NCBI GenBank assembly: GCA_022822005.1
Contig: JAJECO010000008.1
Span: 186,001 to 250,000 of the forward strand
Source of the DNA: Candidatus Poribacteria bacterium
Lineage (GTDB): Bacteria > Poribacteria > WGA-4E > PCPOR2b
DNA: 64,000 nucleotides
Reading direction: 5' to 3'
Part shown: positions 13,198 through 27,740 of the stretch, one piece after another
Layout of the letters: each line of letters begins with the position of its first letter
How positions within the stretch are numbered: position 1 is the first letter of the stretch
Notes under the pieces: generated by a model
Databases searched by the model: none
The model's input: only the letters and a program-made list of their open reading frames with translations
What the model was told of the DNA's origin: nothing
Translations under genes and position numbers: made by a program

Positions 13198-13644
13198 ATG
13201 AAGGCTTATGCCACGCTCGCCGACAATGTTCTCCAACCGCTCTGCATCAGTGAACGCCTGATGACGCGTTATCAATTCCGCGAACTGATTGAACTCGGCA
13301 TCCCGCAGTTCATTATGCCGGACATCTGTTGGTGTGGTGGCATAACAGAGGCTCGGAAAATAGCGGTGCTCGCTGATACCTATTATCTCCCGATCGCGCC
13401 GCACAACTGCGGCGGTCCCGTCCTGCATGTCGCCTCGATTCATCTGACGACACATTTGACAAATCTATTTATACTTGAAAGCGTCCGCCGCCACTACCTT
13501 GTTCATTACGATAATCTGGTGACGGGGCTGGTTCCAGTCGAGGAAGGACATTTGACCCCGCCTGAAGGTCCCGGACTTGGCATTGAACTCAAGCCGCAAG
13601 TGCTGGATGCCCCCGGAATTGAGATTGAGACAATTGGTAAATAA
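13198..13644 (+). pseudogene. C-terminal remnant of an enolase-superfamily dehydratase
   Basis: The 148-codon ORF corresponds only to the last third or so of a mandelate racemase/galactonate dehydratase type enzyme. Recognisable blocks are CISERLMTRYQFRELIE, IMPDICWCGGITEARKIA and LPIAPHNCGGPVLHVASIHL, the end of the barrel with the catalytic HN segment. The capping domain and the metal-binding Asp/Glu strands are missing, and the transaldolase gene ends only 17 bases upstream, so they are not present in another frame. This looks like a deletion remnant. Whether the fragment is translated is unclear; the ATG has no clear ribosome-binding site. Confidence 0.75.
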
Positions 13645-13660
13645 TATTGTAACTTATTCT

Positions 13661-13843
13661 GTTAGATCTTAACGCAAGTTGCTAGTTGTCAAACCCGCTC
13701 GGCTTGGATAGACATATCCAAGCCATCTTTGCGCGTATGCAGTGGATTTGTCAATCCACTGCGAGCGGTCATTGATTCAATTTGGCTTTCATTCGCTTGG
13801 TTTTCAACGTTTTCTATAACTAAGCAACTTAGGTTAGATCTTA
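13661..13843. mobile_element. MITE-like element folding as a three-way junction
   Basis: The ends form inverted repeats: AGATCTTAACGCAAGTTGCT at 13664-13683 against AGATCTAACCTAAGTTGCTT read from 13841 on the other strand. GTTAGATCTTA also occurs as a direct repeat at both ends (13661 and 13833). In the middle, CCGCTC (13695-13700) pairs with GAGCGG (13763-13768) and encloses two perfect 10-bp hairpins at 13701-13724 and 13739-13762. Their four-base loops, GACA and TGTC, are complementary. No coding capacity. A partial relative lies at 27714-27740. Confidence 0.7.
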
Positions 13844-23136: not shown

Positions 23137-23602
23137 AACTCACCTTCGTCTGATACAGGTTTAGGTTTGCTTTTCGCATCCCAAATCGTGAAGCGTCTTT
23201 CACCCCAAGAATTCTGAAGCGTCGAGATGGAAAATGTCAAACCGAAATCGGTATGAAACGTACTGCGAATTTTGATGGCTTAGCGTCGTTCGGATTTCGT
23301 AATCCTCACATCGGGCGTTAGTATCAGTGATTAGCTTTTAACATTGTCACAACAACGCAACTACGCCCTGTTGGAAACCATCTTCTTCGATCGTCCTGTG
23401 AATTGAATAGTGGTCCTTCGCAATTTTCCAACGCTGCTCGCAGAGCAAGGAACTCCGCTTATGTTAAGAAATCGTGCAACAGAAACCGAGTTTTGAAGAA
23501 AAAACTCGGTTTCACTTCATGCTGTGCACTTGCTTTTTATATGAGCCAAGAACTTTTATCAGCGAGCCGATAATTCTAAATAATTAGTTCAAATCTCTCT
23601 TA
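23137..23602. other. Intergenic region between mutS2 and dnaG
   Basis: These 466 bases hold the hairpin repeat at 23461-23513 and the upstream region of dnaG. I see no gene on either strand and no promoter good enough to mark. Confidence 0.6.
23461..23513. repeat. 53-nt hairpin repeat, copy 2
   Basis: It matches 174-226 at 50 of 53 positions. The stem GAAACCGAGTTTT/AAAACTCGGTTTC is perfect here, with a short GAAG-type loop. It lies about 90 bases beyond the mutS2 stop, so it could also act as a transcript end in either direction, though no T-run follows. Confidence 0.75.
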
Positions 23603-27713: not shown

Positions 27714-27740
27714 ATGTCCATCCAAGCCGAGCAGGCTTGA
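27714..27740. repeat. Partial relative of the three-way-junction element
   Basis: These 27 bases match the reverse complement of 13689-13715 at 24 positions (ATGTCCATCCAAGCCGAGC and on). Only one hairpin arm and part of the outer stem are kept. It lies directly after the LarA-like gene stop. Confidence 0.5.

Follow-up and report, generated by a model that had tools for sequence, protein, structure and literature searches.

Two hairpins with perfect stems stand side by side at one site in the window, the 64-kb stretch of DNA analysed here (positions 186001-250000 of contig 93 in a 6.0-Mb assembly), and the question raised by this locus is whether they represent a selected RNA or DNA structure or were brought in by mobile DNA. 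The initial annotation regarded them as parts of a MITE-like element with a three-way junction whose complementary loops could kiss. We consider it very likely that the element is a non-autonomous IS982-family MITE of Candidatus Poribacteria, a sponge symbiont, the cargo of which is a GCTC-headed REPIN of a RAYT system, so that one selfish element appears to be carried by a second. The features are listed below with positions in the window.

13663-13671, no strand: target-site duplication, left copy, TAGATCTTA, 9 bp; sister genome G003 (L275), where the site is empty, has it as a single copy
13672-13834, + strand: whole MITE, 163 bp excluding the target duplication
13672-13684, + strand: left terminal inverted repeat, ACGCAAGTTGCTA; the identical 13-mer terminates a 927-bp IS982 element (L078/L102)
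13695-13768, no strand: REP pair (REPIN); CCGCTC/GAGCGG are the inverted heads plus 2 bp
13697-13724, + strand: REP 1 (H1), head GCTCG and hairpin GCTTGGATA-GACA-TATCCAAGC
13725-13738, no strand: spacer separating the two inverted REPs; sequence varies between copies
13739-13766, - strand: REP 2 (H2), inverted, head GCTCG and hairpin CAGTGGATT-GACA-AATCCACTG
13822-13834, - strand: right terminal inverted repeat, AAGCAACTTAGGT; the majority of copies have TAGCAACTT and then AGGT or GCGT
13835-13843, no strand: target-site duplication, right copy, TAGATCTTA; also found at the G003 empty site
27714-27740, - strand: degenerate single REP, which reads GCTCGGCTTGGATGGACATGTTCCAGCC on that strand and was recognised by eye; MITE ends not found near

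Ends, copies and neighbours of the element

The left end of the 163-bp element is ACGCAAGTTGCTA and its right end is the complement of ACCTAAGTTGCTT. Terminal inverted repeats had been noticed before, and real ones exist (ACGCAAGTTGCTA/AAGCAACTTAGGT), whereas the outermost repeat GTTAGATCTTA is not one of them and contains the target duplication. In G003 only a single TAGATCTTA is found and the element is absent, giving a clean empty site. The MITE-like character proposed earlier was thus borne out by IS982-type ends, target duplications of 6-9 bp in the family and this empty site. The sequence is multi-copy: at least 68 blastn matches were found in the own genome (40 of 204 candidate places were scored), and exact H1 palindromes number 134 there, against 0 with the reversed control. 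Among the GTDB matches listed, from which the window's own record may be missing, the core pattern occurs at no fewer than 52 named loci in five MAGs, every one of Candidatus Poribacteria; no similar DNA was found in plasmid or phage records. A partial copy had been reported at 27714-27740, of which the degenerate single REP stands; this site was unlisted by a 7-mismatch scan and has no IS982-type end nearby.

The flanking genes had been described as an enolase remnant and an exporter with a damaged start. The former is real, and window positions 13198-13644 correspond to the C-terminal half of an MR_MLE enolase-superfamily protein, which now adjoins a transaldolase-like ORF. Since the missing upstream part is present and open in G003, G002 and G005, the N-terminal part has been lost from the own genome; the break and the insertion are about 470 bp apart. 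The exporter does have an odd upstream region with an in-frame TGA, but the 163-bp element is ruled out as its cause, because the upstream sequence is identical in G003, which lacks the element.

The 927-bp element of the same genome has the same ends as the MITE and encodes a 296-aa protein, and the L078 ORF scored 168.4 bits against the NCBIfam IS982 model (cut-off 130). Nine IS982-homologue loci were examined out of 30 fetched, and six of them, about 925-1036 bp in length, are bounded left and right by these ends (G000, which is the window's own genome, G004, two in G026, G029 and G030, the latter five with 63-84% protein identity); the remaining three have one clear end only or doubtful ends. 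Since the same ends recur at six of nine homologue loci, they belong to this transposase lineage. Exact TANNNTA duplications (TATTATA, TATACTA) accompany two of the six both-ended loci, and the only complete IS982 element of this kind in the own genome has a duplication matching at 6 of 7 bases. Because its ends match those of the 927-bp element, the 163-bp element is most likely moved in trans by the IS982 transposase. Such an IS982-type DDE transposase would bind the 13-bp ends, and insertion would occur at TA-rich intergenic sites with duplication of 6-9 bp.

Searching the fetched own-genome loci for IS982-type ends spaced 60-330 bp gave 36 non-redundant elements with a length span of 90-339 bp. 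Like the window copy, they are short, multi-copy and without a transposase gene. Exact target duplications were found in 23 of the 36 (6 bp in 2, 7 bp in 18, 8 bp in 2 and 9 bp in 1) and were absent in 13; all of the 23 end in TA and all but one start in TA, and about one seven-base match (~0.9) per 36 elements is expected when right flanks are shuffled. Insertions of this family avoid genes: of the 32 junctions with enough flank, only 2 interrupt an ORF of at least 120 aa, whereas 75% of points chosen at random in these joined flanks do so. Elements with these ends and without the hairpin core occur at lengths of 90, 113, 146 and 228 bp. The 90-bp one (L088) resembles, by eye, an internal deletion of an IS982-type IS. 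An additional palindromic module (TCCCGATTTATCGGGG, CCGTTCCGCCTGTC) was seen in other members (L093 860-1066, L083 2344-2571, L085 786-1019 and L042), inserted either at the base of the H1 hairpin or behind H2; other places in the fetched loci have it too, and it has the appearance of one more small nested repeat.

REPs as cargo and the RAYT gene

Read from its head, each REP consists of GCTCG, a 9-base arm that includes TGGATW, a loop of 4 bases and a second arm complementary to the first, and the H2 REP lies on the strand opposite to the H1 REP. A headed palindrome, an inverted pair and many copies, the marks of a REPIN, are thus all present; the head here is GCTC(G/C) and not GTAG or GTGG, and therefore the REP falls outside the GTAG class.

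The own genome has three Y1_Tnp matches, and its RAYT of 185 aa (L077 ORF, 1426-1983), with the motifs NHLH and YIHNNP, scored 88.4 bits against NCBIfam REP_Tyr_transpos (cut-off 80) and a low 26.8 bits, yet above the cut-off of 23, against the Pfam model. Sequence searches of PDB found no Y1 relative of it, and the AlphaFold model has a mean pLDDT of 43.5, too low to be of use. Several GCTC-headed REPs are present on each side of the gene. Among 84 Poribacteria genomes, the RAYT protein was found in four (G000, G008, G043 and G009, the latter three with 74-83% identity to the own protein; the G009 gene reads in two frames), and in all four GCTC-headed REPs lie no more than about 130 bp from it on either side. 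When 53 Y1 loci, a few of them overlapping, were inspected, REPs were found only at the own RAYT (L098), L214 and L215, and later at L284. The hairpins are probably recognised by this HUH/Y1 transposase, the gene of which is enclosed by the same REPs in all four carriers.

The REP search pattern GCTCSNNNTGGATWNNNNWATCCA was present in 12 of the 84 genomes, including all four RAYT carriers, and a control gave 0. The counts are 225 in G000 (106 forward and 119 reverse; control 0), 86 in G003, 74 in G009, 50 in G012, 31 in G002 and 27 in G004, and low numbers were obtained for G008 (9), G001 (5), G005 (4), G043 (3, all of them surrounding its RAYT), G050 (2) and G007 (1). RAYT was undetected in eight of these REP-bearing genomes (among the 80 genomes where it was not detected), some of which are incomplete MAGs.

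Cargo status was assigned to the first 50 of the 134 H1 palindromes in contig order, an IS982-type end being called when no more than 4 of its 15 bases mismatched and it lay at most about 200 bp away. Forty-nine are inside or next to an element of one or other of two MITE families, and one is in neither. IS982-type ends are near 38 (both sides for 18, one side for 20, with 1 and 5 of these, respectively, at contig edges), and a second MITE family accounts for 11 (both ends for ten, one end for one). The ends of this second MITE resemble TGCTCTGTCAAATAAAT and TACATTGTCAGATAAAT, and its duplications are of 4 bp (CTAG, CTAA or CTAC), so that the two REP-carrying families are mutually unrelated in ends and target duplications. 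The list for the second family had 21 rows, which include both strands and a few false ones and correspond by eye to about 11 distinct elements; since the dominance of CTAG raises the shuffled expectation (5.4 of 21), the CTAN duplication rests mainly on CTAC and CTAA. At L234, L242, L243, L245, L250, L252 and L256 the second MITE carries the same REP pair, often with the H2 stem TTGTGG/CCACAA.

Twenty stretches fetched from G009 and G012 contained 19 REP sites, ten of which have a common long flank when grouped by eye; the other sites share little beyond the REP, and therefore free REPs exist in these genomes. The ten with the common flank form a third repeat family, some 200 bp long and with a single GCTC REP, which occurs beside free REPs with unrelated flanks (L307-L326).

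The own RAYT and its REPs are enclosed by IS982-type ends with TAAAATA on each side, and this RAYT-bearing element is succeeded by two more MITEs in tandem, each separated by TAAAATA. The counterpart of this site is MITE-free in G001 and G004. In G003 (L294 1012-1541) it holds a hybrid element without RAYT, whose left part comes from the IS982-type MITE and whose right part comes from the second MITE, with the REPIN as the junction. The simplest order of events is that the MITE came first and that RAYT later entered its REPIN, by RAYT action or REP recombination.

The inner palindromes might instead be captured filler unrelated to any RAYT, in a plain IS982 MITE whose ends fully explain the copy spread, and the repeats are indeed kept in genomes without a detected RAYT. 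We regard this as unlikely, because the same headed hairpins flank RAYT in four of four genomes, in three of which the gene is not enclosed by two IS982-type ends, and because the hairpins occur alone with unrelated flanks in G009/G012 and also within the second, unrelated MITE family.

The cargo REPIN would have a history of its own on the preferred reading: REPs probably got into the MITEs through RAYT activity or REP-REP recombination, and after entry they probably spread mainly by the MITEs' own transposases. We tentatively propose, as a possibility that falls short of an even chance, that the REPIN-RAYT system has changed vehicle. REPINs would then multiply mainly as passengers of DDE transposons (the IS982-type MITEs and the unrelated CTAN MITE) and persist or spread even in genomes that have lost RAYT, with the REPIN acting as a recombination joint of both MITE families, as in the G003 hybrid, and with RAYT caught inside a MITE.

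The predicted fold and its covariation

Both perfect 10-bp hairpins of the initial annotation (13701-13724 and 13739-13762, with tetraloops GACA and TGTC) and their 6-bp flanks (CCGCTC at 13695-13700 and GAGCGG at 13763-13768) are present. The 183-nt stretch has a predicted folding energy of -70 kcal/mol (z -7.65), equalled by 0 of 200 shuffles. Perfect stems of at least 10 bp occur at three distinct places in the window, two of which are the H1 and H2 hairpins, and ten Markov-1 sequences of equal length gave 0, 4, 0, 0, 0, 0, 0, 0, 0 and 1 matches. The sole further stem of this kind (loop 3-8) is a 13-bp hairpin, GAAACCGAGTTTT...AAAACTCGGTTTC, at 23482-23513.

Compensatory changes were looked for in 254 REP units, anchored on the head and left arm only and taken from all loci fetched by then. 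Three variable base pairs of the stem were formed in 742 of 762 cases, compared with a mean of 358 and a maximum of 420 when right arms were shuffled; this ratio is not a probability, because related copies are counted separately. Ten or more distinct types of stem were seen (GCT/AGC, CAG/CTG, TTG/CAA, TAG/CTA, CGC/GCG, CTG/CAG, TGC/GCA, TCG/CGA, TGG/CCA and CCG/CGG), and the loop is GNCA in 243 of the 254 units. The suggested selection for structure therefore holds for the two hairpin stems and not for the outer stem and the loops, which show no covariation. The outer six pairs, which were to close the three-way junction, form at 0.844 compared with a shuffled mean of 0.833 and maximum of 0.851, all six being present in 55 of 121 units, and the loops that were to kiss are fully complementary in 61 of 121, compared with 61.8 expected by shuffling. 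Neither the junction nor the kissing loops can be maintained as a selected structure. Since the second REP is inverted, CCGCTC/GAGCGG resembles an outer stem, with the inverted GCTC heads explaining its pairs, and the loops GACA/TGTC, the same loop read on opposite strands, are complementary by construction.

A structured RNA or single-stranded DNA junction of this form with a cellular function (small RNA, attenuator or terminator) would agree with the strong predicted fold, the covarying hairpin stems and the mostly intergenic location of the elements. In a structured RNA compensatory changes would extend to all helices, and here they extend to the two hairpins and fail in the outer stem. The copies are dispersed and come with the ends and target duplications of a transposon, and in the sister genome the site holds no element. 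The search of Rfam gave no family at the gathering threshold, and what scored lower was at chance level; identity with a known RNA family was rejected on this result. We judge a cellular function of this kind very improbable. That RAYT moves the entire 163-bp unit as single-stranded DNA, with its inverted repeats and duplications incidental, is scarcely credible in spite of the coexistence of RAYT and REPs in the own genome, and such Y1 movement is largely refuted by the exact duplications in 23 of 36 elements (IS200/IS605-type movement is not known to produce a target duplication) and the empty site; the inverted repeats that the unit shares with DDE elements and the coreless elements also oppose it.

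Relation to known REPIN and MITE systems

MITEs and REPIN/RAYT systems are both known kinds of element, and a REP pair within a longer palindrome has a precedent (PMC3733652, section 7). As in the REPINs and RAYTs described by Bertels and Rainey (2011; PMC3116915), an inverted REP pair is the repeat unit, RAYT is flanked by the same REPs with REP clusters beside it, and the repeats are extragenic and high in copy number. The Poribacteria system differs from that description in its head (GCTC versus GTAG), in that the REPs of the own genome are nearly all MITE cargo and RAYT lies within a MITE, and in that several genomes have REPs where RAYT was not found. REP heads in print are mostly GTAG or CGTC (PMC3733652), and the present data place alongside the GTAG class a second class of RAYT-linked REPs, headed by GCTC. 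The palindromes of A. variabilis (GTAG-15) and H. neapolitanus (CGTC-1) also hold REP dimers within a longer palindromic repeat; section 7 of the same paper assigns them neither a transposase family nor a target duplication, unlike in Poribacteria, where the carriers are the IS982-type MITE and the second family with its CTAN duplications of 4 bp. MITECca01 of Cardinium (PMC9769881) is likewise short, non-autonomous, mostly intergenic and from a symbiont, with IS982-family ends; it is about 240 bp long, and the part of the account used here does not mention REP or RAYT cargo. Our literature search, judged by title or abstract, found no paper on REPINs or RAYTs in Poribacteria, and the literature searched did not contain a GCTC head with RAYT, two unrelated carrier MITEs or a RAYT caught inside a MITE.

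For annotation, this locus is a case in which a striking "designed" structure is explained without an RNA function. The copying of REPINs is ascribed to a RAYT that is inherited vertically (PMC8049555), and if in one phylum they ride ordinary transposons and the presence or damage of RAYT and the number of REPs vary from relative to relative, the question arises of whether REPINs can outlive their RAYT.

The own RAYT resembles TnpAREP subclass 2.6 / RAYT group 5, which has NH[LIV]H, YIH[QN]NP, an SS tail, a length of 179 aa and atypical flanking hairpins in the description given (PMC6006769), since it has NHLH, YIHNNP, WSSA and 185 aa; it differs in the W motif (WE versus WQ), and that group is mostly from Bacteroidetes. 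This motif likeness is only a lead to kinship. A similar-looking ORF, helicase-like by eye, adjoins the RAYT orthologues of G008, G043 and G009 (L283, L284 and L285), and this location in three different genera suggests an old, vertically kept position that the own genome has left.
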